In this document: piece after piece, positions 733 to 61,011 of the stretch
Numbering within the stretch: position 1 is the stretch's first letter
Layout: each line of letters begins with the position of its first letter
Source: Bradyrhizobium sp. AZCC 1693
Lineage (GTDB): Bacteria > Pseudomonadota > Alphaproteobacteria > Rhizobiales > Xanthobacteraceae
Direction: 5' to 3'
DNA: 64,000 nucleotides
Assembly: GCF_036924745.1 (NCBI RefSeq)
Contig: NZ_JAZHSD010000001.1
Coordinates: forward strand, 7,377,001 to 7,441,000
Made by a program: the position numbers and the translations under genes
The notes under the pieces: generated by a model
Seen by the model: only the letters and a program-made list of their open reading frames with translations
The model's database searches: none
Told to the model about the DNA's origin: nothing

Positions 733-1926
733 ATGATTGTCCTCGGTCGTCATCGCGCGCTTGCACAGGACGCCTGGGATGAATTGGCTGTCCGCGCGGT
801 GATCGAAGAAATTGCGACCGATGCAATCACCCATTTCGATCCCGACAGGTTATGGCCGGGTCATCCGAGTGGCGAGAGGGAGGAAGACGGCGACCCCAGT
901 TTCTACAAGGGCGCGGCTGGTGTCATTTGGGCGCTGGATTATCTACATCGCGTCGGTGCGACCCGCGTCGCCGAAGACTTTCGCCCGGCGATGCCTAAGC
1001 TTATGGAGCGGACGATCGCCGACTTCGAAATCAGCTTCCCGACCGATTACGAGAAACATGGCTCGCTGCTCCGTGGCGACATGGGTGCGGCGCTTCTCGC
1101 CATGCGCCTTGAGCCCACATCGAGCCTCGCTGATCTGGTGCACGGCCGCGCAGAAGCAAATAATGATCTGCCGATCCGGGAGCTGATGTGGGGCATGCCC
1201 GGGTCCATGCTCGCCGCCATCCACATGGCCGAAATGACCCAGGAAACGCGGTGGCGCATCCTGTTCGAAATGCAGGCGGCCCGGCTGCTGGCCGAGCTGG
1301 AGGACACGCCGCAAGGTCCACTATGGACACAGGATCTCTACGGCGAACGCGACCGTTGGCTCGGGCCCGTCCACGGTTTCGCCGGCAATGTCATTCCGTT
1401 GTTGCGCGGGTGGGATTGGTTGACGCCGACGCAGCAAGCGCAGGTGGCTGAGTTTGTACCGAAGACGCTTGCAGCGAATGCGTGGCGGTCAGAAGTTGGG
1501 ACCACGTGGGGCGCGAGAAGCAAGCGCGAGACGCCGCCAAAGATGTGTCAGCACTGTCACGGTGCGCCCGGCATGGTGACGACATTTGCGGACGCGCCCT
1601 TCGCTACCCCTGAATTTGACGCACTTCTTGTGGATGCCGGTCGCTTCAGCTGGGCCGCCGGACCGCTTACCAAGGGCTCGAATCTTTGCCACGGCACGGG
1701 CGGGAATGGCTACGCATTCCTAAAACTCTACCGTCGCACGAACGATCCGGTTTGGCTCGACCGCGCGCGCCAATTCGCCATGACGGCCATCGTCCAGTAT
1801 CGCGGCTCTCAGATAGCCGTTGGCCGCGGACGGTATTCGCTTTGGACCGGCGACGTCGGCCTTGCCATTTACCTTTGGGACTGCATCACCGGGGAGCCTC
1901 GTTTTCCCACGATCGACGTGTTCTGA
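733..1926 (+). CDS. LanC-like (lanthionine synthetase C family) protein
   Basis: This 397-residue protein has the hallmarks of the LanC/LanCL family, an alpha/alpha barrel with an active-site zinc that activates cysteine thiols for addition to dehydroamino acids or electrophiles. The expected motifs are present: HGFAG (His near 213), CHGAPG (Cys 275, His 276) and CHGTGGNGYAFL (Cys 319, His 320). The two Cys and the last His are the expected zinc ligands. The length matches stand-alone LanC-like proteins. I chose ATG 733 because AGGAGG lies 9 bases upstream; a longer frame begins at 619 without such a site. No LanB/LanM dehydratase or Cys-rich leader peptide was seen nearby, so a lantibiotic role is unlikely here. 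Its substrate is unknown. Confidence 0.85.
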   Translation: MIVLGRHRALAQDAWDELAVRAVIEEIATDAITHFDPDRLWPGHPSGEREEDGDPSFYKGAAGVIWALDYLHRVGATRVAEDFRPAMPKLMERTIADFEISFPTDYEKHGSLLRGDMGAALLAMRLEPTSSLADLVHGRAEANNDLPIRELMWGMPGSMLAAIHMAEMTQETRWRILFEMQAARLLAELEDTPQGPLWTQDLYGERDRWLGPVHGFAGNVIPLLRGWDWLTPTQQAQVAEFVPKTLAANAWRSEVGTTWGARSKRETPPKMCQHCHGAPGMVTTFADAPFATPEFDALLVDAGRFSWAAGPLTKGSNLCHGTGGNGYAFLKLYRRTNDPVWLDRARQFAMTAIVQYRGSQIAVGRGRYSLWTGDVGLAIYLWDCITGEPRFPTIDVF

Positions 1927-2036
1927 CCCGAACATCGCGACACGCCGGAATCAGCAAATACGCGGCGCTTTATCTTGAATGGCCTCCTGCCGAACAATAA
2001 GATTGTTGGCAGGCCACGTTTCGGAGCGCGCCCAAT

Positions 2037-2405
2037 ATGGCGTGGAATTTACTTTATTCTGGATACGCAACTCTCCAATACGAGATCGCCGAGGAGAGGG
2101 CGTCGGCGCTCGGGCGGCTTGGACGGCGGCTTGAGGCCGCGCTGACGGCACTAGCCGCATGCCCACGGACGACCAATTCCGATCGAAGAATCCGCGATGG
2201 TCTCGTCGAACAGGCGGGATACGCGCTCTGGCTCTTCGTCGTGCAGCGCGAGGCCTGCGGTCTCAACAAGATCGACCACGTGATACGGGTCTACGTCTAC
2301 GGGGTGCCGAACGAGGTGGTTGCCCGCATGGGGCCATTGGCCATCCCGAGCATCCATCCGGCGAAGACCATAGGGGTTAAGGTCGTGCTGCCGCCCATGT
2401 TCTGA
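2037..2405 (+). CDS. Small conserved hypothetical protein (DUF6665-like)
   Basis: A 122-residue soluble, mostly helical protein with no signal peptide. It contains the pattern 'YEIAEERASALGRLGRRLEAAL', then 'GLVEQAGYALWLFVVQREACGL', then 'YGVPNEVVARMG'. This resembles a small family seen in Bradyrhizobium and relatives that I remember as DUF6665, with the recurring phrase 'W.F.VQRE.CGL' and a C-terminal 'P.EV.ARMG'. No biochemical function is known to me. It lies 110 bases after the LanC-like gene on the same strand, so co-transcription is possible. The RBS before ATG 2037 is weak. Confidence 0.6.
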   Translation: MAWNLLYSGYATLQYEIAEERASALGRLGRRLEAALTALAACPRTTNSDRRIRDGLVEQAGYALWLFVVQREACGLNKIDHVIRVYVYGVPNEVVARMGPLAIPSIHPAKTIGVKVVLPPMF

Positions 2406-2510
2406 AACCCGCCTTTCGCGGCGGGGCGCCGCTAAACTCGCCGCCAACTATCTGGCGTTCGTCAAACTCGCTTCCATCCGAATTTGGCTGCGCGCTGACG
2501 AGTCCGCGCT

Positions 2511-3587
2511 CTAATTGACGAGTCTCGGTATTCCCAGATCGTCGGCGACCTGGTCCAGCCCGCGCAGCAGCGCGGGCGCTACGGGAATGCCAAGGCTGGT
2601 CCGCTTGAGGCGCGTTTCATGGCTGCGTTCGCCGGGCACCCAGATGCGATCCACGCCGGGGATGCGCCGGCTGTTGCGGAAGTCGCGCACCAGCGCATCG
2701 ACGCTTCGCTTGAAGATGGCAATGTCGCCGAAGGCTGCGATGTTGATCGCGGCGATCGCCTGTCCGGTGTTGGTGACGCTGTCGTCGTCGTGATTGAAGT
2801 CGATCACGTCGCGGCCCATCGCGGCGCCGCCGAGCGTGCCTGCAAGGAGGCCGATGATCATCGCAAGGCCGTAGCCCTTGTAACCGGCCTCCATGCCGCC
2901 GAGCGGTAGCAGCATGCCTTCGTCGGCGCGTTTCGGGTCGGTCAGCGGCTTGCCTTCGCGGTCGATCATCCAGCCCTCCGGCATGGTCTCGCCGCGCAGC
3001 GCCTTGGTCTTCACTTTCCCGTAAGCTGCGACCGTCGTCGCCATGTCGAGCACGATCGGGTTTTCGTCGCCGGCCGGAATCGCCGCCGCGATCGGATTGG
3101 TCGACAGCAGCATGTCGAGGCCGCCCCAGGGTGGAAGGTGATTGGCGTTGCCGACCGCGAAGTAGAGCCCGATCATGTCGTGGGCCAGCGGCATCGTGGC
3201 GTAGAGCGAGGCGGGGCCGGCATGGTTGCTGAACTGCGAGTTGACCCAGCCTATTCCGGTGCTGCGCGCCTTTTCGATCGCCATCCCGGCCGCGCGTTTC
3301 ATGACGAGGTGGCCCATGCCGTTGTCGCCGTTCAGGACGGCGGTGCCGGCGTGCTCGTGCACGACATGGATGTTGGGCCGGACGTTGAAGCCGCCGGCCC
3401 TGATCCGCTTGACATATTGCGGCAACCGGCTGACGCCGTGCCCGTCCGACCCCTGCAGGTCGGCCGCCGCCATCAGGGCCGCGACCGTTGCGGCGTCGGC
3501 GTCCGGCAAGCCCACCGCGGTGAGCGCTTGCTCAATGAAGGCCTTCAACCGGCCAAAAGTAACTGATGTATCGGACAGGACGGGCAC
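2511..3587 (-). CDS. Ldh2/malate-L-lactate dehydrogenase family oxidoreductase
   Basis: A 358-residue member of the Ldh_2 family (YlbC, ComC, DpkA, MdhII), NAD(P)-dependent 2-hydroxyacid or imino-acid oxidoreductases unrelated to classical Rossmann LDHs. Family features visible are the 'D..GSDGHGVSRLPQY' segment near residue 50 with the conserved His, the 'SNHAGPASLYA' segment, 'LSTNPIAAAIPA', and the C-terminal 'YKGYGLAMIIGLLAG' block. The substrate cannot be read from the sequence. The start is GTG 3587, the first codon of the family N-terminus; no ATG is available. It stands alone, with the AsnC-domain gene upstream on the same strand about 70 bases away. Confidence 0.88.
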   Translation of the reverse strand: MPVLSDTSVTFGRLKAFIEQALTAVGLPDADAATVAALMAAADLQGSDGHGVSRLPQYVKRIRAGGFNVRPNIHVVHEHAGTAVLNGDNGMGHLVMKRAAGMAIEKARSTGIGWVNSQFSNHAGPASLYATMPLAHDMIGLYFAVGNANHLPPWGGLDMLLSTNPIAAAIPAGDENPIVLDMATTVAAYGKVKTKALRGETMPEGWMIDREGKPLTDPKRADEGMLLPLGGMEAGYKGYGLAMIIGLLAGTLGGAAMGRDVIDFNHDDDSVTNTGQAIAAINIAAFGDIAIFKRSVDALVRDFRNSRRIPGVDRIWVPGERSHETRLKRTSLGIPVAPALLRGLDQVADDLGIPRLVN

Positions 3588-48699: not shown

Positions 48700-50508
48700 A
48701 TGGGTATCTTCGGCGCACTCACCACCGCGGTCGGCGGCCTTCGCGCCAACTCCTACGCGCTGGAAAACGTCTCGGGTAACATCGCCAACTCGCAGACCAC
48801 GGCGTTCAAGCGCGTCGACACCTCCTTCCTCGATCTGATTCCGCAGACCTCAGCGACCGCGCAACTCGCGGGCGGCGTCACCACGCAATCGCGCTCCACC
48901 AACTCGGTGCAGGGCGACGTGCAGACGGCCTCGGTTGCGACCTTCATGGCGATCAACGGCAACGGCTTTTTTGCGGTGCAGAAGCCCGGCAACTTCACCG
49001 ACGGCACGCCGGTGTTCGATGGCGTCGACCGCTATACCCGCCGCGGTGACTTCCAGCTCGACAAGAGCGGCTATCTGGTCAACGGCGCCGGCTATTACCT
49101 GCAGGGCGTGCCGATCGACCCGACCACAGGCAACCCTTCCGGCAGTTCGCCGCAGGTCCTCCGATTCCAGAACGACTTTTTGCCGGCGCAGCAAACCACC
49201 AGGATCGACTACCGCGCCAACCTCGCCAGCTATCCGCTGACCACCAAGCATGACGTTTCCGTGCCCGGATCGGAATTGATCGTGCCCGGATCGTACAGCG
49301 CCGGACATAATCCGCTGGCGCTCGGCACGCCTGCGGCGCCCTATACCGACTCCACCAGGAGCGGCACCACGCAGAACAACAAAGCGACGCCATCGGTGGC
49401 GAACACAGCCGCGACCCTGCTCAACGGCGCCGCCGGTACCGACTCGATCTCTTCCAATTTCATCGCGGGCGACACCATTACGGTCAACGGCCAAACCATC
49501 ACCTTCATGGCGTCAGGCGCCGCCGGCAACAACCAGATCAACATCACAGACAACATCGGAACCTTGCTGGGCAAGATCGACGCGCTCCAGGGAACGTCAG
49601 TCGCGTCCACGATCGCCTCCGGCTCGATCACGCTGCACTCCGGCACCGCCAACAACCTCACGATCTCAAGTTCGAACAACGCAGCTTGGGCTGCCCTCGG
49701 CTTTACCGGCACCGTGACGGCGACGCGCGGCGGCGGCGGCGGCGTCGGCACCGGTCAGGTCGTCGGCAACGACAACTCGACGTTCCTCGCCGAGTCGATA
49801 GCGGGTGGTGCGGTCACGACCTACGACGTCTCGGGCGCTCCGGTGAACCTGCAGTTCCGCTGGGCCAAGGTCGACAGCGCCTCGCTTGGTGCGGGTCACA
49901 CCGACACCTGGAACCTGTTCTACCAGGTCAATCCCAACGCAACCGGCACCCAGGTCGCGTGGCAGAACGTCAACACCAACTTCACTTTCTCGGCCTCCGG
50001 CCAGATGACGCCGGCGGTACCGAACATCGAGCTCACCAATGCCGTCGTCAACGGCGTCTCGTTGGGCAGTCCCGTCATCAACTTCGGCACCGGCGGTGTC
50101 ACCCAGTTCGCGGACGCCAACGGCAACGTGCAGGTCAACCAGATCCAGCAGGACGGCTTCCCGGCCGGCCAGTTGCAGTCCGTCGGCGTCGGCACCAACG
50201 GCCGAATCGTCGGCAACTATTCCAACGGCCGCAACCTCGACCTCGCCGAAATCTCGGTCGCGACCTTCAACGGCACCAACTTCCTCAAGCGCGTCAATGG
50301 CGGCGCGTTCGAAGTCACCGACGCATCCGGACAGGCGCTGTTCGGCAAGGCCGGAACCATCGTCGGCTCGTCGCTGGAAGGATCCAACACCGATATCGCC
50401 GACGAGTTCACCAAGCTGATCGTCACCCAGCAGGCTTACTCGGCCAACACCAAGGTGATCACCACTTCCAACACGATGGTGCAGGACCTCCTGAACGTGC
50501 TGCGCTGA
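48700..50508 (+). CDS. flgE: Flagellar hook protein FlgE
   Basis: A 602-residue hook subunit, exported by the flagellar type III apparatus and polymerised into the hook. The conserved N-terminus 'ALTTAVGGLRANSYALENVSGNIANSQT' and the C-terminal 'IVTQQAYSANTKVITTSNTMVQDLLNVLR' flank the usual hook core ('GYYLQGVPIDPTTG'). About 110 residues (232-345) form an inserted domain ('ITVNGQTITFMASG' to 'SSSNNAAWAALGF'), also found in FlgL and the flagellin here. The protein is clearly longer than the 400-residue enteric hook protein. It is the first gene of the flgE-flgK-flgL operon, from a sigma-54 promoter. Confidence 0.95.
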   Translation: MGIFGALTTAVGGLRANSYALENVSGNIANSQTTAFKRVDTSFLDLIPQTSATAQLAGGVTTQSRSTNSVQGDVQTASVATFMAINGNGFFAVQKPGNFTDGTPVFDGVDRYTRRGDFQLDKSGYLVNGAGYYLQGVPIDPTTGNPSGSSPQVLRFQNDFLPAQQTTRIDYRANLASYPLTTKHDVSVPGSELIVPGSYSAGHNPLALGTPAAPYTDSTRSGTTQNNKATPSVANTAATLLNGAAGTDSISSNFIAGDTITVNGQTITFMASGAAGNNQINITDNIGTLLGKIDALQGTSVASTIASGSITLHSGTANNLTISSSNNAAWAALGFTGTVTATRGGGGGVGTGQVVGNDNSTFLAESIAGGAVTTYDVSGAPVNLQFRWAKVDSASLGAGHTDTWNLFYQVNPNATGTQVAWQNVNTNFTFSASGQMTPAVPNIELTNAVVNGVSLGSPVINFGTGGVTQFADANGNVQVNQIQQDGFPAGQLQSVGVGTNGRIVGNYSNGRNLDLAEISVATFNGTNFLKRVNGGAFEVTDASGQALFGKAGTIVGSSLEGSNTDIADEFTKLIVTQQAYSANTKVITTSNTMVQDLLNVLR

Positions 50509-50555
50509 TTGCGCGGCGGGCCGTTCGCGATGCGTCTTGAGATGGGCAATTAGTC

Positions 50556-52436
50556 ATGGGTTTGAGTCAAGCTCTCTCCACCGCAATGTCCGGCCTGCGC
50601 GCGACGCAAGCCGCGATCGCGCTGGTCGGATCGAACGTCGCCAACGCGGAAACGCCCGGTTACGTCAGGAAGTCGATCATCCAGTCCGCCGGCGTGACCG
50701 GCGATTACGGCTCGAGCGTTCTGCTCCACGGCGTCGACCGGCAGCTCGATCAGTATCTGCAGACGCAACTGCGGACTGAAACCTCCGGCGCGGCCTATGC
50801 CGATATCCGCTCGACCTTCCTGCAAAATTTGCAGAACGTCTACGGAAATCCGGCCGAGACCGGCACCATCGAGGACTCGTTCAACAAGCTGTTGACCGCC
50901 TTTCAGGGCCTGTCGACCAGCCCGGACTCGCAGTCGGCGCGGATCGGCGCCGTCAGCGCCGCGCAGACCATGGCGCAGACGCTCAATGCGGCGACGCAGG
51001 GGATTCAGAGCCTTCGCGCCAATGCCGAGATGGGCATCAACGATTCCATCGTTACGGCGAACAACGCGATGGCCCAGATCGCGTTCATCAACAACCAGCT
51101 CCAGAACAACGGCACGACCGATGCGGCGACGGCGTCGTTGTTGGATCAGCGCGACCAGTACATCACTCAACTGTCGAGTCTGATGGACATCAGAACGGTC
51201 GTCAACGACCTCAACCAGGTGACCGTCTTCACGAATTCCGGCGTGCAACTGGTCGGGACCGAGGCTGCGCAGCTAAGCTTCAATCCGCAGGGCACGATGA
51301 CGCCCAACACGCTGTACAACACCGATCCGACCAAGAGCAACGTCGGCACCATCGCGATCAATTTCCCGCACGGCGGCAGCTACGATCTGGTCTCGACCAA
51401 CTCGATTCGGTCGGGCAAGATCGCGGCCTATCTCGAATTGCGCGACAACACGCTGGTGAAGGCGCAGGCGCAGATCGACCAGTTCGCCGCGTCGATGGCG
51501 AGCGCATTGTCGGACAAGACGACGGCCGGCACCGCTTCGCCCGCTTCCGTGCTGCCGCAGGCCGGCTATGATCTCGATCTCACGGGATTGCAGTCCGGCA
51601 ACGTCATTCACGTCAGTTACAAGGACAACACCACCGGCGTTACGCATAACCTGTCGATCGTGCGGGTCGACGATCCGACTGTTCTGCCGCTGAGCAATAC
51701 CGCGACCCTCGATCCCAACGATGAAGTGCTGGGCGTCAATTTTTCCGGCGGTATGGCCTCGGTGGTTTCCCAGCTCAACGCCGCGCTCGGGTCGGCCGAT
51801 CTGCAGTTTTCGAATCCGTCCGGCTCCACGCTGCGCGTTCTGGATGACGGCGCGTCGAATCGTTCGGATGTACTGGCGGCGTCGGTCACCACGACGATGT
51901 CCTCGCTCACCAGCGGCAACCCGCAGCTCCCGCTGTTCACGGACAATGGCGGCCTGTTTTCCGGTGCGCTCACCGCCAACGGTTCGCAGCAGACGGGTCT
52001 CGCGGGCCGCATCAGCGTCAATCTCGGGCTGCTCGGCGATCCTTCGCGTACCATCGTGTTTTCCACCAGCCCGCTGACGCCTTCGGGCGACACCACGCGT
52101 TCCGACTTCATTCTCACGCAGCTGCAGTCGGGCAACTACCGCTATTCGCCGCAGACCGGCATCGGGACCACCGGCGCGCCGTTCACCGGCACGCTGGTCA
52201 ACTTCGCCAAGCAGTTCATCAGCCAGCAGGGCGAAGCCGCAACCGCCGCCAAGCAGCTTTCCGACGGTCAGTCTGTGGTGCTGAACACCCTGCAGAAGAA
52301 GGTGACGGATACCTCGGGCGTCAATATCGACGACGAGATGGCGCATCTGCTCGCGCTGCAGAATGCCTATTCCGCCAATGCGCGCGTCATGTCGTCCATC
52401 AAGCAGATGTATGACACGCTGATCCAGGCCATGTGA
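50556..52436 (+). CDS. flgK: Flagellar hook-associated protein 1 FlgK
   Basis: A 626-residue hook-filament junction protein. It has the N-terminal 'LSTAMSGLRATQAAIALVGSNVANAETPGYVR' and C-terminal 'HLLALQNAYSANARVMSSIKQMYDTLIQAM' coiled-coil segments of FlgK, with an expanded middle. It lacks the 'TVNG.TITF' insert seen in FlgE, FlgL and flagellin, which makes the insert pattern informative. It begins 47 bases after flgE, and flgL follows 7 bases after it. The 'RDQYITQLSSLMDIRTVVNDLNQV' block matches the FlgK core. Confidence 0.95.
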   Translation: MGLSQALSTAMSGLRATQAAIALVGSNVANAETPGYVRKSIIQSAGVTGDYGSSVLLHGVDRQLDQYLQTQLRTETSGAAYADIRSTFLQNLQNVYGNPAETGTIEDSFNKLLTAFQGLSTSPDSQSARIGAVSAAQTMAQTLNAATQGIQSLRANAEMGINDSIVTANNAMAQIAFINNQLQNNGTTDAATASLLDQRDQYITQLSSLMDIRTVVNDLNQVTVFTNSGVQLVGTEAAQLSFNPQGTMTPNTLYNTDPTKSNVGTIAINFPHGGSYDLVSTNSIRSGKIAAYLELRDNTLVKAQAQIDQFAASMASALSDKTTAGTASPASVLPQAGYDLDLTGLQSGNVIHVSYKDNTTGVTHNLSIVRVDDPTVLPLSNTATLDPNDEVLGVNFSGGMASVVSQLNAALGSADLQFSNPSGSTLRVLDDGASNRSDVLAASVTTTMSSLTSGNPQLPLFTDNGGLFSGALTANGSQQTGLAGRISVNLGLLGDPSRTIVFSTSPLTPSGDTTRSDFILTQLQSGNYRYSPQTGIGTTGAPFTGTLVNFAKQFISQQGEAATAAKQLSDGQSVVLNTLQKKVTDTSGVNIDDEMAHLLALQNAYSANARVMSSIKQMYDTLIQAM

Positions 52437-52443
52437 GGGTTTC

Positions 52444-54321
52444 ATGTCTATTGACGGCGTTAACGGCAGGACATCCTATATCGGGACCTCGATCCTCAAT
52501 ATCCGCGCGCAACTCGATAATCTGACGCAGCAACTCGCCAGCGGCCGGGTCTCGACGACCTATGCGGGGCAGGGCGCCAATCGCGGCTTTGCGCTTAGCT
52601 TGCGCGCCCAGGTCAGCGGTCTCGATTCCTATGCGGACACCGCGAAGAACGTCAATATCAGGCTCAACGTCGTCAACCTTGCGCTGCAGGGCTTGGCCGA
52701 CATCGGCACGTCGGTGAAGAGCGCGGCCAGTACGTCGACCATCGTGCTCAACAACAACGGTCAAACCTCCGGCCAGATCACGGCGCAGGCGGCGTTCTCG
52801 AATGCGGTGTCGCTGCTCAACAGCCAGACCGGCGACCGCTATCTGTTTTCCGGACGCACCACCGACACATCAGCGACAGTGCCGGCCGACGTCATGCTCG
52901 ACGGCATAGGAACCCAGGCCGGGTTGAAGCAACTGATCAACGAACGGCGTCAGGCCGATCAGGGCGTCAGCAACATGGGGCATCTGACGGTCTCGTCGCC
53001 GCCGTTGACGACCACCGTGACCAGCCTCGCCGAAGACGGTTCATCGTTCGGCTTGAAGCTTGGCTCGATCAGTTCGTCGCTGACGGGAGCGACCGTGACA
53101 CAGCCGGCCGGTGTGCCGCCGGCCGTCACCGTCGATCTCGGCGCCGTCAATCCGAACGATGGCGACAAGGTCACGTTCAACTTCAACCTGCCCGACGGCA
53201 CCACCGAGTCGATCGCGCTGACCGCGACGACCAAGAATCCGCCGCCGACAGGCTCGTTTCTGATCGGCGTCGACACGGTTGCGACCACCGCGAACCTGCA
53301 GGCCACATTGACGTCTTCGATCCAGACGCTGGGCGACACGTCGCTGGTGGCGGCATCCGCGATCGCGGCATCAGACAATTTCTTCAATCCGTCCGCCACC
53401 GTCACGGGGGCTGCGGTCAACAATCAGGCCGCGGTGCCGGCGCCGATCACCGGCGCTACGTTGCTTTCGGGCCTTGCGGGAACGGATTCGCTGGCCGCGA
53501 GCTTTGCGGCGGGCGATACCATTACGGTGAACGGCACGCCGATCACCTTCGTCGCATCGGGTGCGACCGGCAACCAGCTCAACATCACCGACAGCGTGCA
53601 GACCCTGCTGGCAAAGATCGATTCGATCAGCGGAACCGGTACGCCGTCGACCGTCACCGGCGGCGTGATCGCGCTGCACGGCGGTGACGGCGCCAGCCTG
53701 ACGGTTTCCAGTTCGAACACGGCCGCGTTCGCGGCACTGGGCTTCAGCGCTCCGGCGAGTGCAAATCCGGCGCCGTTGCGTGTCAACGGTCCGCCGTTTG
53801 CCACCGCCACCAATCTGATCGGCGGCACGTCCGCCAACACCGTCTCGTGGTACACCGGCGAAGTCGGTACCGATCCGCCGCGGGGCACCGCGATCGCACG
53901 CATCGACCAGTCGATCACGGTGCAATATGGCGCGCGCGCCAACGAGCAGGCGTTGCGCTATCAGTTGCAGAACATCGCGGTGTATTCCGCGGTCACGACC
54001 AATGCCAATAATCCGAACTCGAAGGCGCAGGTGAACGCGCTGCAGCAGCGGATTTCGGCAAACCTGGCGCCGCAGACCGGCCAGCAATCGATTCAGGACA
54101 TGCAGGCGGAGTTCGCCGGCGCACAGAACGCCATCAAGGCCTCGACCGACCGCCAGACCCAACTCAAGGGAATGGCGCAGACCATGCTTGACCAGATCGA
54201 GGGCATTAACCAGGACGAGGTCGCGACCAAGATCCTGGCGCTGCAGACGAGCCTGCAGGCCTCGTATCAAACCACGTCGATGCTCTACCAGACCACGCTG
54301 ACCAAGTTCCTGCCGGTCTGA
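52444..54321 (+). CDS. flgL: Flagellar hook-filament junction protein FlgL (flagellin family, large form)
   Basis: The 625-residue protein has flagellin-type termini: 'TSYIGTSILNIRAQLDNLTQQLASGRVSTTYAGQ' and 'LALQTSLQASYQTTSMLYQTTLTKFLPV'. It is about twice the size of enteric FlgL. A first expansion lies at about 120-320. A domain at 328-440 ('GDTITVNGTPITFVASGATGN', 'NTAAFAALGF') is homologous to the insert in FlgE and the repeated domain of the flagellin. It ends the flgEKL operon before a shared terminator. Confidence 0.92.
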   Translation: MSIDGVNGRTSYIGTSILNIRAQLDNLTQQLASGRVSTTYAGQGANRGFALSLRAQVSGLDSYADTAKNVNIRLNVVNLALQGLADIGTSVKSAASTSTIVLNNNGQTSGQITAQAAFSNAVSLLNSQTGDRYLFSGRTTDTSATVPADVMLDGIGTQAGLKQLINERRQADQGVSNMGHLTVSSPPLTTTVTSLAEDGSSFGLKLGSISSSLTGATVTQPAGVPPAVTVDLGAVNPNDGDKVTFNFNLPDGTTESIALTATTKNPPPTGSFLIGVDTVATTANLQATLTSSIQTLGDTSLVAASAIAASDNFFNPSATVTGAAVNNQAAVPAPITGATLLSGLAGTDSLAASFAAGDTITVNGTPITFVASGATGNQLNITDSVQTLLAKIDSISGTGTPSTVTGGVIALHGGDGASLTVSSSNTAAFAALGFSAPASANPAPLRVNGPPFATATNLIGGTSANTVSWYTGEVGTDPPRGTAIARIDQSITVQYGARANEQALRYQLQNIAVYSAVTTNANNPNSKAQVNALQQRISANLAPQTGQQSIQDMQAEFAGAQNAIKASTDRQTQLKGMAQTMLDQIEGINQDEVATKILALQTSLQASYQTTSMLYQTTLTKFLPV

Positions 54322-54344
54322 CGAACGCTTGTCTGCTCAGAAAT

Positions 54345-54373
54345 GAAAAGGCCTCCTTGCGGAGGCCTTTTTC
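54345..54373. terminator. Bidirectional terminator between flgL and flbT
   Basis: AAAAGGCCTCC and GGAGGCCTTTTT pair around the loop TTGC, giving A-tract and T-tract on the two sides. It therefore works for flgL (plus) and for flbT (minus). Confidence 0.92.
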
Positions 54374-54394
54374 GTTCAGGCGAGGTGGTGGTGG

Positions 54395-54823
54395 TTATGC
54401 AGACTTTCGGTCGGGCTCATTGGACGCCTGAAGCTTTCGGGCGCTCTCGAGAATCTGCTCCTCATGGCCGATCAATTTCTTCGATTCCTTCAGCGCGTGA
54501 TAGAGATCGCCGTTCAGAATGTAGTTGTTGATCCCTTCGATGAAGGGCCATGCGCTCGGCATCGCGGTCAGGATGTCGCGCACGAGGCTGAAATAGGTCG
54601 GATGGTGCGCCATCGGATCCGGTGACAGGTACATGAGCTGCACGGCGAGATAGACCAGCTTGGCCGGCGTGTCGGCGCTCTCGGGTGTGAGGATATCCTT
54701 CTCACGCAGGATCGGAATCCTGTCACCGTCGATCAGCAGTCTGGCGCGTTGATCGGTATTGGTGACCACGCAGGCGCCGATAATGATTCGCTCGTGCGGT
54801 TTGAGCTCGACTTTCAAGGCCAT
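54395..54823 (-). CDS. flbT: Flagellar regulatory protein FlbT
   Basis: A 142-residue FlbT. In Caulobacter it binds the 5' leader of flagellin mRNA and represses translation until the hook is finished. The family core is 'VELKPHERIIIGACVVTNTDQRARLLIDGDRIPILREKDIL' in parts, followed by 'LYLAVQLMYLSPDPM'-like and 'INNYILNGDLYHALKESKKLI'. GGAGA lies 8 bases before ATG 54823; the longer frame to 55039 is leader sequence. It is divergent from the flagellin gene. Confidence 0.94.
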   Translation of the reverse strand: MALKVELKPHERIIIGACVVTNTDQRARLLIDGDRIPILREKDILTPESADTPAKLVYLAVQLMYLSPDPMAHHPTYFSLVRDILTAMPSAWPFIEGINNYILNGDLYHALKESKKLIGHEEQILESARKLQASNEPDRKSA

Positions 54824-54896
54824 GCCTGTTCTCCGTTTGACGCTTTTCGCGTTGTCGATTGCCCGCCGGCAGATTCGGCATCCTTCCCGATGATGG

Positions 54897-55004
54897 TTAA
54901 CCAATGGTGAACATGCGATTAGTGCCCGTCTGGCGGAGCTTTTTCGCTGGCGATCCGTAGGAATACGGAGTGGATTCGGACGCGTCGAATTAATTTCAAA
55001 TTCA
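54897..55004. promoter_or_regulatory. Divergent flbT/flagellin promoter region with two near-CtrA boxes
   Basis: The 311-base gap contains TTAACCAATGGTGAA at 54897-54911 (TTAA-N7-TGAA) and TTAATTTCAAATTCA at 54990-55004 (TTAA-N7-TTCA). Each is one base away from the CtrA consensus. No sigma-54 element was found here. A leader of about 100 bases precedes the flagellin ATG, a plausible FlbT target. Confidence 0.35.
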
Positions 55005-55134
55005 TCGTCTTTGCGAGCGACTTGCCCGACCAAATTCATTTTTTCTTAGAGACTTGCTTTCAGAGTGAGCCGTCGCCTGATCGAGAGGTCGGGAAAGTGG
55101 CTCGTTTTAATTTCACACCAGAAAGGTATGAAAG

Positions 55135-57384
55135 ATGTCCGGTATTGTTCTTTCGGCTTCGGTTCGCCAGAACCTTCTCTCGCTGCAGTCGACCGCCGAT
55201 CTGCTCGCCACCACGCAGAACCGCCTTGCCACCGGCAAGAAGGTCAACACGGCCCTCGATAACCCGACCAACTACTTCACCGCGCAGTCGCTCGACGCGC
55301 GCGCCGGTGACATCAACAATTTGCTCGACGGCATCGGCAACGGCGTGCAGGTGCTGCAGCAGGCCAACAACGGCATCACCTCGCTGCAGAAGCTGGTCGA
55401 CACCGCGAAGTCGATCGCCAACCAGGCGCTGCAGAGCGCGGTCGGCTACTCCACCAAGTCGAACGTCTCCACCACGATCACCGGTGCGACGGCTGCCGAC
55501 CTGCGCGGCACCACGAGCTACACCAGCGCGACCGCGAGCAGCAACGTGCTCTACACCGGTGCGGCCGGCGGCGCGACGGCGGCTGCAAGCACCACCAAGC
55601 TCGGCGGCGTTTCTGGCGCTGCCACCGGCACGGCGGTGAACGACAACGCGGCGGCTGCCATCACGACCGGCACGCTGATCTATGGCGCTACCGCTGCGTT
55701 GACCACGCAGGCCGCCACCAAGTTCGTTGACGGTGACGTGCTCACCGTGAACGGCAAGACCATCACCTTCACGTCAGCCGCGACCCCAGCCGCTGCGGCG
55801 GTTCCGGCCGGTTCGGGCGTGAGCGGCAACGTCGTCAACGACGGCAGCGGCAACTCGAAGGTCTACCTGAACGCGGCCACCACGGTGGGCGACGTGCTTC
55901 AGGCGATCGATCTTGCCAGCGGCGTCCGGTCCGCCGTGAACGCCAGCGGCGCCGCGACGGTCACCAGCCCTGCCTCGGGCCAGACGGCTTCGTCGATCAC
56001 TGCCGGTGCGGTCAAGCTGCAGAGTTCGACCGGTGCCGATCTCTCGGTCAGCGGCAAGGCTGACATTCTCAACGCGCTCGGCCTCACGCCGGCGACCGGC
56101 TCGGGCACGGCCACCATCGAGGCGACCCGCACGACCGACACCAACACGCTCGGCTCGCTGCTGCAGACCGGTTCGTCGCTCTATGTCAATGGCCACACCA
56201 TCAACTTCGCCGCCGGCGCTACCCCGGCTGCGGCGAATGTCCCGACTGGCTCGGGCGTGAGCGGCAACGTCGTCACCGACGGCAACGGAAACTCGACCGT
56301 TTACATCCAGTCCGCCACGATTGCCGACCTGCTCAAGGCCGTCGACCTGGCGACCGGCGTGCAGACCGCCACGAACGCGAGCGGCGCGGCCACTGTGGCC
56401 ACCGCTTCCGGTCAGGTCGCCTCGTCGATCGCCAGCAACGGCACGCTGAAGATCTCGACCGGCACCAGCCAGGATCTGGCGATCACCGGCACCGGCAACG
56501 CGCTGAGCGCGCTTGGTCTTGGCGGCAACACCGGCACCGACAATGCGTTCACGGCGGCCCGCACTTCCGCCGCCGGCGGCATCAACGGCAAGACCTTGAC
56601 CTTCTCCTCCTTCAATAGCGGCACGGCGGTCAACGTCACCTTCGGCGACGGCACCAACGGCACGGTCAAGACCCTCGATCAGTTGAACAAGGCGCTGCAG
56701 GCCAACAACCTGATCGCCACGCTCGACTCTGCGGGCAAGCTCACGATCTCGGCGGCTAACGACTATGCGTCGTCGACGCTCGGGTCATCGGTCTCCGGTG
56801 GCGCGATCGGCGGTACGGTGACGGCTGTGCTGTCCTTCACCAACGCGGTGGCTCCTGTCGCCGATGCGCAGGCCCAGAACACCCGCGCCACTTTGGTGAA
56901 CCAGTTCAACGGCATCCTGGCCCAGATCACCACCACCGCGCAGGACGCGTCGTTCAACGGCATCAACCTGCTCAGCGGCGATCAGCTCAAGCTGACGTTC
57001 AACGAAACCGGCAAGTCGACCCTGAACATCACCGGCGTCAACTTTGATGCCGCCGGTCTCGGCCTGGCGAACCTGACCAGCGGCGTCGACTTCATCGACA
57101 ACGCCGCCACCAACAGGGTTTTTGCCGACCTGAGCAGCGCCTCGACCCAGCTGCGCACGCAGGCTTCTACCCTCGGTTCGAACCTGTCGATCGTGCAGAT
57201 CCGTCAGGACTTCTCGAAGAACCTGATCAACGTGCTGCAGACCGGCTCGTCGAACCTGACGCTGGCCGACACCAACGAGGAAGCGGCGAACAGCCAGGCG
57301 CTGTCGACCCGCCAGTCGATCGCGGTGTCCGCGCTGGCGCTGGCCAACCAGAGCCAGCAGAGCGTGCTGCAGCTCCTGCGCTAA
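55135..57384 (+). CDS. Flagellin, large form with repeated variable domain
   Basis: A 749-residue flagellin with canonical D0/D1 ends: 'IVLSASVRQNLLSLQSTADLLATTQNRLATGKKVNTALDNPTNYFTAQSL' in parts and 'STRQSIAVSALALANQSQQSVLQLLR'. The central region has two long homologous blocks centred near residues 202 and 349 (period about 147 residues; 'VLTVNGKTITFTS' and 'LYVNGHTINFAAG', each followed by 'GSGVSGNVV.DG.GNS'). A third, weaker one lies near 480-560 ('INGKTLTFSS'). I believe this is the DUF1522 domain known from Bradyrhizobium flagellins. Size and style fit the thick subpolar filament. AAAGG is 8 bases before ATG 55135. Confidence 0.94.
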   Translation: MSGIVLSASVRQNLLSLQSTADLLATTQNRLATGKKVNTALDNPTNYFTAQSLDARAGDINNLLDGIGNGVQVLQQANNGITSLQKLVDTAKSIANQALQSAVGYSTKSNVSTTITGATAADLRGTTSYTSATASSNVLYTGAAGGATAAASTTKLGGVSGAATGTAVNDNAAAAITTGTLIYGATAALTTQAATKFVDGDVLTVNGKTITFTSAATPAAAAVPAGSGVSGNVVNDGSGNSKVYLNAATTVGDVLQAIDLASGVRSAVNASGAATVTSPASGQTASSITAGAVKLQSSTGADLSVSGKADILNALGLTPATGSGTATIEATRTTDTNTLGSLLQTGSSLYVNGHTINFAAGATPAAANVPTGSGVSGNVVTDGNGNSTVYIQSATIADLLKAVDLATGVQTATNASGAATVATASGQVASSIASNGTLKISTGTSQDLAITGTGNALSALGLGGNTGTDNAFTAARTSAAGGINGKTLTFSSFNSGTAVNVTFGDGTNGTVKTLDQLNKALQANNLIATLDSAGKLTISAANDYASSTLGSSVSGGAIGGTVTAVLSFTNAVAPVADAQAQNTRATLVNQFNGILAQITTTAQDASFNGINLLSGDQLKLTFNETGKSTLNITGVNFDAAGLGLANLTSGVDFIDNAATNRVFADLSSASTQLRTQASTLGSNLSIVQIRQDFSKNLINVLQTGSSNLTLADTNEEAANSQALSTRQSIAVSALALANQSQQSVLQLLR

Positions 57385-57700: not shown

Positions 57701-58066
57701 ATGTCTAATGCAGCCCAGGCCTACGCGCGTACATCTCAAACGACGACGTCTCCCCGTGAAATCGAAGCGCAGGCGCTGCTGAAGGCCGCACGGCAACTGC
57801 AGGAAGTCCAGTCCAACTGGAACGGTCCCGACACAGCGATGCACAATGCGTTGCTCTTCAATCGCCGGCTCTGGTCGATCTTCATGAGCGCCGTGGAGAC
57901 GAATGAAAATCCTCAACCGATGGAAGTCCGGCAGAACATTGCCAACATCGGCGTGTTCGTGATGAAACAAACCGTCGACATGCAGTTGAATCCGGATCCG
58001 GCCAAGCTGAAGTCGCTGATCGACATCAATTGCAATCTCGCCGCCGGCCTTTCGGGTCGCGGCTAA
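57701..58066 (+). CDS. flaF: Flagellar biosynthesis regulator FlaF
   Basis: A 121-residue FlaF. In Caulobacter it counteracts FlbT, permits flagellin translation and acts as a secretion chaperone. Family features are 'AYARTSQTTTSPREIEAQALLKAARQLQ', 'NALLFNRRLWSIF' and 'PMEVRQNIANIGVFVMKQT'. It lies downstream of the flagellin gene, with flbT on its other side, an arrangement that keeps the regulatory pair around its target. The RBS GAGG lies a few bases before ATG 57701. Confidence 0.94.
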   Translation: MSNAAQAYARTSQTTTSPREIEAQALLKAARQLQEVQSNWNGPDTAMHNALLFNRRLWSIFMSAVETNENPQPMEVRQNIANIGVFVMKQTVDMQLNPDPAKLKSLIDINCNLAAGLSGRG

Positions 58067-58468: not shown

Positions 58469-58849
58469 TTAAGCCTTGCGATCGGTGGCGCGAAGCCGCG
58501 TGGGGGCGTCCTTGGTCAAATCGAGCGTGTGGAAATAAGCCCGCCGGCGCAGCACGGCTTCCTCGGGAAACTGCTTCACCACCTGGCTCGTCCTGGTATC
58601 GATGACCTGATAGACGACGGCGCGGGCGTCGCGGTCGATCACCACCTGGTTTGACGTCGAGGCATTCGAAATGGAGACGCGGACCGCCGCGGAATCGGTG
58701 CTGGCGCGCGCGCTCGAGTCCACCGCCGCGACGCTCTGGCTCGCCGGCAGTTCGGTCGCGACCGCATGTTGTGCCGCCTCGCTCACGTGCTGAACGATCG
58801 GCGCGGCAACCGGTGCCCCCACCGGTTTAATGTTGAAATCTGTACTCAT
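58469..58849 (-). CDS. FlaG-like flagellar protein
   Basis: A 126-residue protein with a disordered N-terminus. Its C-terminal segment 'SNQVVIDRDARAVVYQVIDTRTSQVVKQFPEEAVLRRRAYF' has the FlaG pattern (Asp, 'V..V.D..T..VV.Q.P.E..L'). FlaG influences filament length in other bacteria. It converges on the flaF operon, 13 bases from its stop. Assignment rests on the short motif and on context. Confidence 0.65.
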   Translation of the reverse strand: MSTDFNIKPVGAPVAAPIVQHVSEAAQHAVATELPASQSVAAVDSSARASTDSAAVRVSISNASTSNQVVIDRDARAVVYQVIDTRTSQVVKQFPEEAVLRRRAYFHTLDLTKDAPTRLRATDRKA

Positions 58850-59530: not shown

Positions 59531-59887
59531 TCAGCCGGCGCGGTTGGCTTGCTGCAGGATCAAGGTGCGGAAGACGTCGTTGGAAATGCCGATGCCGCCG
59601 GACTTGGCGAAGGATTTCGAATATTCGTCCGTCAGCATCGAGCGCCAGACGCCGGTGCCGGTCGTGTCGCCGAACGGCCCATCGCCTTTGACGCCGGTGG
59701 TCATCTGCGAAAACATCGAGTTGAGGAACATCGCCTCGAACTCCTGGGCCTTGGCGCGGGTCTTTTTCTGCGCCTCGGGTGAAATCTTTTTCATCGCATC
59801 GGCAAGCTGCGGATCGTTGCGGCCGTTGATCAGCGAAATCTTCTTCTTCGAGTATGCGCCAATGCCGTTGATAAGGCTCGTGTCCAT
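59531..59887 (-). CDS. Rod-binding protein, FlgJ N-terminal domain (CheL-like)
   Basis: A 118-residue protein equal to the rod-capping domain of FlgJ without the muramidase domain, as in Caulobacter CheL. The core is 'AQEFEAMFLNSMFSQMTTGVKGDGPFGDTTGTGVWRSMLTDEYSKSFAKSGGIGISNDVFRTL' in parts. It starts at ATG 59887, overlapping the flgI stop (TGATG), which couples translation. GAGGTGA upstream serves as RBS. Without a muramidase domain, another enzyme must open the peptidoglycan. Confidence 0.9.
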   Translation of the reverse strand: MDTSLINGIGAYSKKKISLINGRNDPQLADAMKKISPEAQKKTRAKAQEFEAMFLNSMFSQMTTGVKGDGPFGDTTGTGVWRSMLTDEYSKSFAKSGGIGISNDVFRTLILQQANRAG

Positions 59888-61011
59888 CACATCACCTCGA
59901 TGTCGGCCTGGATCGCACCGGCGGCCTTGATCGCCTGCAGTATGCCGATCAGGTCGCGCGGGCCGATGCCGAGACCGTTGAGGCCGTCGACGAGCTGCTG
60001 CAGCGAGACGCCGTCCTTCACGACCGCGAATTTCTTGCCGTCTTCGGAAACGCTGACCCCCGTGCGCGGCGTCACCACGGTGCGGCCGCGCGACAGCGGA
60101 TTGGGCTGGCTCACTTGCGGGCTTTCCGAAATCGTCACGGTGAGATTGCCCTGCGCCACCGCCACGGTCGCCACGCGAACGTCGCGGCCCATCACGATGA
60201 TGCCCGAGCGCTCATCGATCACGATCTTGGCGGCAAGATCCGGGTCGACCTGCAATTGCTCGATCTCGGTCAGGAAGGCCACCACGTTGCCCTTGAATTC
60301 GGCGGGGATCGCGAGCTGCACCGTGGAGGGATCGATCGGCTCGGCCGTCTTGACACCGAGGAAATCGTTGACGGCCGCCGCGATCCGCTTGGCGGTCGTG
60401 AAATCGGCGTTGCGCAGCGCCAGCCGGACATTGGGCAGGCGATTGAGCGCGAATTCGATCTCGCGCTCGATGATGGCGCCGTTGGCGATGCGGCCGACGG
60501 TCGGCACGCCGCGGGTGATCTTGGCGGCCTCGCCTTCGGCCTGGAAGCCGGAGATCGCCAGCGAGCCCTGGGCGACCGCATAGACGTTGCCGTCGGCGCC
60601 GAGCAGGGGAGTGACGAGCAGGGTGCCGCCCTGCAGGTTCTTGGCGTCGCCGAGCGCGGATACCGTGACGTCCATCCGCGTGCCCTGGGTACCGAAGGCC
60701 GGCAAATTGCCGGTGACCATGACGGCGGCGACGTTGCCGGTGCGGATGGTGGCGCCGCGGATGTTGACGCCCATGCGTTCCAGCATCGCCTGCAGCGATT
60801 GCTTGGTGAAGGGGATGTTGTTCAGCGTGTCGCCGGTGCCGTTGAGGCCGACCACGAGGCCGTAGCCGATCAACTGGTTCTGCCGCACGCCTTCGATGTT
60901 GGCGAGATCCTTGATCCGCGACGTCGCGCCCGCGGGCGACGACGCTAACGCCAGCGCCAGCAGCGCGGCGCAGGCCATCCAAATCAGTCCTGCCGAACGG
61001 ATGCCGGGCAT
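59887..61011 (-). CDS. flgI: Flagellar P-ring protein FlgI
   Basis: A 374-residue periplasmic P-ring protein with signal peptide (cleavage near SPAGA). Family blocks are 'RIKDLANIEGVRQNQLIGYGLVVGLNGTGD', 'SLQAMLERMGVN', 'NVAAVMVTG' and 'ERSGIIVMGRDVRV', ending 'GIGPRDLIGILQAIKAAGAIQADIEVM' (each shown in part). It forms the bushing in the peptidoglycan layer. It is the first gene of the flgI-cheL/flgJ-flgN operon and diverges from fliX, the arrangement known from Caulobacter. Confidence 0.96.
   Translation of the reverse strand: MPGIRSAGLIWMACAALLALALASSPAGATSRIKDLANIEGVRQNQLIGYGLVVGLNGTGDTLNNIPFTKQSLQAMLERMGVNIRGATIRTGNVAAVMVTGNLPAFGTQGTRMDVTVSALGDAKNLQGGTLLVTPLLGADGNVYAVAQGSLAISGFQAEGEAAKITRGVPTVGRIANGAIIEREIEFALNRLPNVRLALRNADFTTAKRIAAAVNDFLGVKTAEPIDPSTVQLAIPAEFKGNVVAFLTEIEQLQVDPDLAAKIVIDERSGIIVMGRDVRVATVAVAQGNLTVTISESPQVSQPNPLSRGRTVVTPRTGVSVSEDGKKFAVVKDGVSLQQLVDGLNGLGIGPRDLIGILQAIKAAGAIQADIEVM

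Follow-up and report, generated by a model that had tools for sequence, protein, structure and literature searches.

A homologous outer domain inserted in the hook protein, FlgL and the flagellin of Bradyrhizobium sp. AZCC 1693

Introduction

In flagellins, outer domains are commonly regarded as decoration that differs between species and concerns the filament alone. Among them, DUF1522 has been described as a frequent flagellin domain (PMC5595980) and tandem growth of outer domains has been reported in flagellins (PMC6248924). In other flagellins, dimers or tetramers of outer domains make up a sheath or a screw-like surface (PMC8931119), and in Pseudomonas aeruginosa PAO1 a network of outer domains is needed for motility and gives stability in viscous media (PMC10256154). 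In Bradyrhizobium diazoefficiens, a thick subpolar filament of 68-kDa flagellins has been described together with thin lateral filaments of 34 kDa (PMC4823718). Outer domains, DUF1522 in flagellins and Flagellin_IN in several flagellar proteins, including FliD, are known already. Among the open-licence papers searched, DUF1522 is mentioned together with flagella in a single paper, and no account was found of one closely similar outer domain common to FlgE, FlgL and flagellin. Here, we describe such a domain in a stretch of 64,000 nucleotides from Bradyrhizobium sp. AZCC 1693 (contig NZ_JAZHSD010000001.1, positions 7,377,001 to 7,441,000; hereafter the window), in which the same decoration is carried by hook, FlgL and filament genes, is multiplied in each of them among relatives, and spares FlgK. 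The explanation that we favour, with a probability of about 0.58, is that a domain of one superfamily was inserted in these hosts by copying from gene to gene and that its copies would pack into like outer layers.

A Homologous Block in Three Axial Proteins

The genes and blocks concerned are listed below, with positions in the window (ORF, open reading frame; HMM, hidden Markov model; aa, amino acids).

48700..50508, + strand: flgE, FlgE-type hook protein, 602 aa (ORF with Flg_bbr_C and FlgE/F/G D1 Pfam domains)
50556..52436, + strand: flgK, 626 aa, without the shared domain (TIGR02492 341 bits, cut-off 170.75; hhalign probability 0.1)
52444..54321, + strand: flgL (HAP3), 625 aa (from position, flagellin-like ends and names of close homologues)
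55135..57384, + strand: flagellin, 749 aa (Flagellin_N, Flagellin_C and DUF1522; PRK12688 1188 bits, cut-off 614)
49384..49716, + strand: shared outer domain in FlgE, residues 229-339 (56% identity to the FlgL block; HMM 137.9 bits)
53428..53757, + strand: shared outer domain in FlgL, residues 329-438 (FlgE-FlgL match, HMM)

When the four proteins were compared with each other by BLASTP, FlgE residues 218-341 proved 56% identical to FlgL residues 318-440 over 124 aa (E 2e-31), and the two blocks are still 71% identical over 241 nt at the DNA level (E 1e-26). Outside the block, FlgE and FlgL give no match to each other. The flagellin as query finds the same block in FlgL (E 5e-6) and in FlgE (E 2e-4), the searches in the reverse direction giving E values of 3e-4 and 0.002. 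An initial annotation of this DNA had placed the block at FlgE residues 232-345 and FlgL residues 328-440, which the HMM boundaries listed above bear out.

Profile comparison, by which the annotation had proposed to verify the relationship, points the same way. A profile of 34 FlgE and FlgL inserts, taken from the window and from sampled genomes of the family, finds flagellin residues 174-320 with a probability of 96.5 (E 7.5e-10), whereas FlgK obtains a probability of 0.1, i.e., the domain is not detected there. The middle part of the flagellin scores 52.0 bits with the insert HMM, while none of 2000 shuffles exceeds -22.1. Across 70 diverse copies, whose identity to the FlgE insert ranges from 27 to 66%, nearly invariant positions are found. 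We regard the homology of the FlgE, FlgL and flagellin blocks as practically certain.

The names FlgE and FlgL follow from the gene order (flgE-flgK-flgL), the core domains and the names of close homologues, and are thus sequence-based assignments. For FlgE, PF06429 and PF22692 are above the Pfam cut-off, TIGR03506 scores 253.7 bits (cut-off 70.25) and a FlgE chain in the PDB is matched at E 6.4e-25; the NCBIfam equivalog scored at best 259.5 bits against a cut-off of 365. Among the matches listed, its closest named hook proteins are those of Bradyrhizobium, at 92% identity over the region searched. For FlgL, the flagellin/FlgL models of Pfam and NCBIfam are sub-threshold (TIGR02550, 43.4 bits against 127.2), and homologues 94% identical over the region searched carry the name flagellar hook-associated protein 3 FlgL.

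Insertion Sites and a Second Type of Insert

The complete insertions are slightly longer than the domain.

49324..49737, + strand: whole FlgE insertion, residues ~209-346, absent from FlgE of relatives L242, L243 and L244
53392..53772, + strand: whole FlgL insertion, residues ~317-443, absent from FlgL of relatives L242, L243, L189 and L154

In these relatives, FlgE and FlgL align flush on both sides of window residues 209-346 and 317-443, respectively, and the block therefore entered both proteins as an insertion. The FlgL insert of L172 lies at the same site as that of the window. As to FlgE, one and the same site is used by one copy in the window, by two copies in L172 and by another insert, hereafter type 2, in L241.

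This second insert was met in 20 regions fetched for other FlgE lengths, 14 of which (L228-L241) hold a FlgE of 663-782 aa. The window-type domain was not found by HMM in these 14 proteins, L232 matching only at E 0.09, and all 14 match another insert of ~220 aa, L237 over a shorter stretch. The type-2 insert is also present in FlgL of L229, L233 and L237 (for L233, the last 830 residues of a 2154-aa 'FlgL', a read-through open frame, were used; the split frames of L228 were kept), and a 92-aa part of it is found in FlgL of L236. Among flagellins, it is matched by those of L227, L229 and, weakly, L246. In L229 FlgL, it is placed in a different loop, beyond residue ~187. When compared with the window insert profile, the type-2 profile aligns at a probability of 89 (E 2.2e-6), and the insert of L241 FlgE is recognised as Flagellin_IN (37.9 bits, cut-off 22.7). 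Judged from these alignments, there is a second case of sharing between FlgE and FlgL, in other genera and with a remotely related insert.

The Flagellin Copies and Their Superfamily

In the window flagellin, Pfam DUF1522 (PF07482) matches with 233.7 bits over two stretches (cut-off 25). For the three copies listed, the hhalign figures were obtained with flagellin alignments on the flagellin side.

55738..56067, + strand: copy 1 (DUF1522), residues ~202-311, longer match 174-320 (probability 98.4, E 8.5e-15)
56176..56502, + strand: copy 2 (DUF1522), residues ~348-456 (probability 98.2, E 4.8e-14)
56575..56769, + strand: third, degenerate copy, residues ~481-545 (matched by the second half of the type-2 insert, probability 96.4, E 1.3e-9)

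Two to three flagellin copies had been announced by the annotation; the two DUF1522 copies are clear, and the third is degenerate and matches the window's own insert profile weakly (probability 12.5, E 0.0023).

The FlgE insert reaches 15.1 bits with DUF1522, below the cut-off of 25, and FlgL gives no DUF1522 match at E<=1, although DUF1522 matches 48 of 70 insert sequences at that threshold. These inserts are therefore placed as a sister group rather than as DUF1522 proper; the kinship to DUF1522 that had been proposed holds through the 48 matches and the profile matches to the flagellin copies. In Pfam scans, the window inserts gave no match to Flagellin_IN (PF07196; cut-off 22.7 bits). Since the type-2 insert is Flagellin_IN, aligns with the window insert profile and matches the third flagellin copy, the FlgE/FlgL inserts, DUF1522 and Flagellin_IN are, at the level of sequence, best viewed as branches of one superfamily. 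The insert HMM also matches weakly (up to 21 bits) one FliD and one FlgK carrying Flagellin_IN in the class-level sample. The idea that a domain of this kind is new to hook-type proteins did not survive: Flagellin_IN occurs in the FlgE insert of another genus and in one FliD and one FlgK of the class-level sample, and FlgE2 of Helicobacter pylori is, with a middling Z, among the nearest solved folds together with FliD D2-D3.

Predicted Fold and Common Descent

AlphaFold (AF2) models were obtained for the FlgE insert (mean confidence, pLDDT, 90.9) and for flagellin residues 150-480 (pLDDT 92.5). Compared by the order of DSSP elements only, both models show the same succession of strands and helices, namely a beta hairpin, a strand, a long helix, a strand pair, a strand and a short helix ending in ALGF/L. 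The annotation had named a differing topology as an argument against kinship; none is predicted by these models. Ubiquitin-like Pfam matches (OTU1_UBXL and others) are mostly sub-threshold, OTU1_UBXL passing only in a 1706-aa flagellin (35.6 bits against 22.7), and no ubiquitin-like structure was listed in the fold searches of the insert models, so that a ubiquitin-like reading was left aside.

In its predicted fold, the block may remotely resemble the outer domains of FliD (D2-D3), H. pylori FlgE2 and FlaB (PDB 5xlj, 5npy and 9yh1). One reading of such a resemblance to FliD, FlgE2 and flagellins is that all axial proteins once possessed this outer domain, which would have survived in FlgE, FlgL and flagellin and disappeared from the others. 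However, the FlgE and FlgL blocks are 56% identical in hosts otherwise without mutual match, insert-less orthologues align flush on both sides and the type-2 insert of L229 lies at another FlgL site. Common descent is thus hardly credible, and transfer between genes is very probable. Since the host cores belong to different families and insert-less orthologues exist, the domain spread between axial proteins, as the annotation had supposed.

Distribution among Relatives

The survey of relatives that had been proposed yielded carriers in FlgE, FlgL and flagellin. In the family, 67 of 198 genomes match the FlgE insert query at E<=0.01, including all 11 drawn from the genus of the window, its own genome among them. 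A FlgE orthologue (at least 141 bits) was detected in 136 of the 198 genomes, 62 with the domain in FlgE and 74 without; by frame length, 22 of the latter are below 510 aa and 42 above 660 aa. In the regions fetched because of domain matches (plus the window), a sample biased towards presence, the domain is found in 62/63 FlgE, 0/63 FlgK, 13/62 FlgL and 72/108 flagellin ORFs. Among 80 named loci picked by domain motif, the counts are 72/72 for FlgE, 0/78 for FlgK, 74/79 for FlgL and 5/35 for flagellin, many of the 35 flagellins being cut by locus ends. The absence of the block from FlgK, claimed initially for the window, extends to all FlgK ORFs of these loci.

In the genus, every one of the 70 sampled genomes is matched once or more at E<=1e-12, a count in which host proteins were not classified. 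Outside the family, the domain becomes rare: it is present in 20 of 297 genomes of the order sample, 10 of them outside the family, and in 10 of 289 genomes of the class sample, nine weakly and the tenth being the window's own.

DUF1522 is found in 28 of the 198 family genomes, of which 27 also carry a FlgE with the domain, compared with 35 of the 108 other FlgE-bearing genomes (Fisher p 2e-10, not corrected for ancestry). When any detected flagellin copy is counted, either in the fetched regions or as DUF1522, 48 of 50 genomes also carry the domain in FlgE, the exceptions being G007 and G124.

Several further observations were made during this survey. G153 encodes an additional FlgE, of 443 aa, at another place in its genome; this protein lies outside both domain matches of G153 and probably belongs to a lateral system, which agrees with the explanation favoured here. 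Within the genus, the FlgE and FlgL cores form score groups (FlgE_N, 383 bits in G105 against about 213 in G024), and the separation of G000, G105 and G122 from other genus genomes suggests more than one lineage of the subpolar cluster. In L226:4551-8831 (G355), a 1426-aa ORF near flgK/flgL contains Flagellin_IN in seven stretches; a core of FlgE, FlgK, FlgL or flagellin was not detected in it.

Copy Number

FlgE carries one copy (protein of about 600-650 aa) or two (about 750-790 aa), and three in two genomes where the protein was identified by order and spacing. Among the best 120 FlgL homologues by score, out of 1308 to 3215 passing proteins, a choice which favours many copies, 79 have three copies, 25 two and 16 one. 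Copies within one FlgL are 59-81% identical (seven multi-copy proteins compared). In an order-level relative (L220:4588-9705, G380), the 1706-aa flagellin-like ORF gives nine domain matches, some of them weak.

Among the matches listed, 60 FlgE-FlgL pairs were obtained from 60 of the 70 genus genomes, ten genomes giving none. With host identity taken from order and spacing and copy number from size class, the (FlgE,FlgL) classes are (1,1) in 21 pairs, (1,2) in 1, (1,3) in 3, (2,1) in 26, (2,2) in 7 and (3,2) in 2; in two of the three (1,3) pairs, just one domain is listed, and the frame owes its length to open frame upstream. Copy-number matching of FlgE and FlgL is weak.

History of the Spread and Phage Relatives

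Over 68 genomes, the mean identity between FlgE and FlgL inserts is 0.571 within a genome and 0.568 between genomes. As within-genome inserts are no more alike than between-genome ones, the spread appears mostly old, and ongoing gene conversion between flgE and flgL was rejected for the set tested. Many repeated transfers, considered because the first domain tree contained 13 label changes, were dropped as well: the domain trees rely on few columns, with 17 long divergent rows left out, and in approximately unbiased (AU) tests one clade per host was not rejected, either for FlgL without the first copy of G064 (p 0.77), for FliC (p 0.71) or for the principal FlgE copies (p 0.39). FlgL of G064 has two copies, the first of which groups with first FlgE copies with a support of 100. 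The simplest story starts with a few old copying events; the copies were then passed on vertically and multiplied in tandem, and now and then flgE donated a later copy to flgL. The following stands: the domain is shared, one later copying from FlgE to FlgL is seen in G064, and type 2 forms a case of its own.

The domain is also encountered in phage proteins, and one may ask whether the module came from, or was exchanged with, tail and virion proteins of phages of Alphaproteobacteria. Its fold and its sequence are both matched by predicted phage proteins (38% identity over 95 columns at E 1.1e-6), one 'Major tail protein' is 38% identical, a Phage_tube_2 tail-tube ORF carries the domain, and a hypothetical protein of Rhizobium phage RHph_N1_10 (L250:1210-3399) is 43.7% identical over 52% of the FlgE insert query. 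Yet identities of 38-44% are within the range of the flagellar copies themselves, so that no phage copy is specially close, and matches were limited to 3 of 50,697 phage records and 2 viral contigs. Phage traffic is accordingly held to be quite unlikely as the explanation. Five class-level relatives (L201, L202, L203, L205 and L210) have ORFs of ~423 aa with the domain at ~90-200; that of L201, the one scanned, is the Phage_tube_2 tail-tube protein.

A Proposed Role in the Outer Layer

The mechanism that we favour would start from a self-folding domain, inserted between the conserved ends of FlgE and in a loop of FlgL, and repeated two to three times in tandem at the centre of flagellin. Duplication and insertion would have brought it into unrelated host genes, where it would have been retained, inherited vertically and amplified locally in tandem. 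The inserts would lie on the outer surface, and copies on adjoining subunits may pack laterally against each other. Hook, FlgL ring and thick subpolar filament would in this way be covered by like outer layers, which would stabilise or stiffen the flagellum. FlgK, described as an elastic layer, might be left bare because it must move. Taken on its own, a packing or stiffening role has about an even chance.

A number of observations weigh against this explanation. Foldseek returned no significant match in the PDB for either model, and VIA-align gave middling Z values for the solved folds that come nearest (FliD D2-D3 and H. pylori FlgE2). FlgL carries the domain in only 13 of the 62 family-sample genomes with FlgL in view, and one FlgK of the class-level sample does have Flagellin_IN. 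Arrays differ in many genomes, a FlgE of two-copy size accompanying a FlgL of one-copy size in 26 of 60 pairs. A flagellin copy remained undetected in 14 of the 62 genomes with the domain in FlgE. Conversely, flagellins with the domain stand beside a FlgE without it in G007, G124 and G072 of the family and in G385 and probably G248 outside it, so that matching of all three parts is not required.

Such irregularities would also be expected if the middle loops of FlgE, FlgL and flagellin merely tolerated insertions, a common local module having dropped in and duplicated without shared function. One FlgE site that holds one copy, two copies, a type-2 insert or nothing, the 22 of 74 domain-less FlgE orthologues shorter than 510 aa by frame length, the varying copy numbers and the genomes just cited with the domain in FlgE or in flagellin alone (the latter G007, G124, G072 and G385) all agree with such a permissive site. 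A neutral passenger should, however, lose both the strong match found in 70 of 70 genus genomes and the nearly invariant positions of the 70 copies. The co-occurrence in FlgE and flagellin (48/50), which is not corrected for ancestry, argues in the same direction. A permissive site is therefore considered rather unlikely as a full account.

Alternatively, the domain could serve for display along the organelle, as a surface ligand, glycan carrier, adhesin or decoy for phages or the immune system. Its probable surface position and its sequence, rich in Ser, Thr and Ala, would suit this function, and some outer domains described in the literature can act in adhesion or proteolysis (PMC8931119; PMC5595980). 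In the FlgE, FlgL and flagellin blocks, no enzymatic or binding domain exceeds the Pfam cut-off, and the best conserved positions (GDTITVNG, the helix and ALGF) look structural; we judge display unlikely.

Beyond the inserted and packing domain favoured here, a broader and tentative proposal, which we think less probable than its negation, is that of a transferable, stackable 'tube-coat' module. A domain of ~110 residues would be copied between the genes of successive tube segments, in arrays of 1 to about 9, also on phage tail tubes, giving unrelated tube proteins one matching outer layer. If this were true, the matching of outer surfaces along an organelle would be evolvable via domain copying and would have been reached at least twice, by the window insert and by the type-2 insert at another FlgL site. 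The presence of one decoration on hook, FlgL and filament genes, with FlgK left out, makes two questions testable: do hook, junction and filament need corresponding outer layers, and are the mechanics of thick subpolar flagella due to these layers? Natural controls exist in Bradyrhizobium and its relatives: some species have a thin lateral system beside the thick one within a single cell, neighbouring genera have insert-less orthologues, and copy numbers form a series.

Neighbouring Genes

Two further flagellar genes flank the flagellin gene.

54395-55039, strand opposite to flgE/flgK/flgL: flbT
57701-58066: flaF

Minus-strand ORFs at 58469-58849 and 59531-59890 are a FlaG-like ORF (24.0 bits, cut-off 23.8) and a short Rod-binding (PF10135) ORF beside flgI. 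A second flagellin gene, 98% identical over the region searched, lies at 4689002-4689766 (minus strand), ~2.7 Mb away on the same 7.6-Mb contig. In the whole source genome, FliD_C (PF07195) gave no match at E<=1.

Comparison with Known Systems

Three described systems come close to the domain of the window. The first is DUF1522 (PF07482): the window flagellin copies are DUF1522 and the FlgE/FlgL inserts are homologous to it, with the same order of secondary-structure elements, but these inserts score under the Pfam cut-off and are without the two extra hairpins of the modelled flagellin copy 1. The second is Flagellin_IN (PF07196), to which the type-2 insert of L241 FlgE belongs by its 37.9 bits, the type-2 profile aligning with the window insert profile; the window's own inserts differ in giving no Flagellin_IN match. 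The third is that of the giant flagellins of Oceanospirillales (PMC6248924), in which an outer domain is tandemly duplicated and filaments are thick. While the available part of that account describes flagellin only, in the system studied here FlgE and FlgL also carry and multiply the domain.

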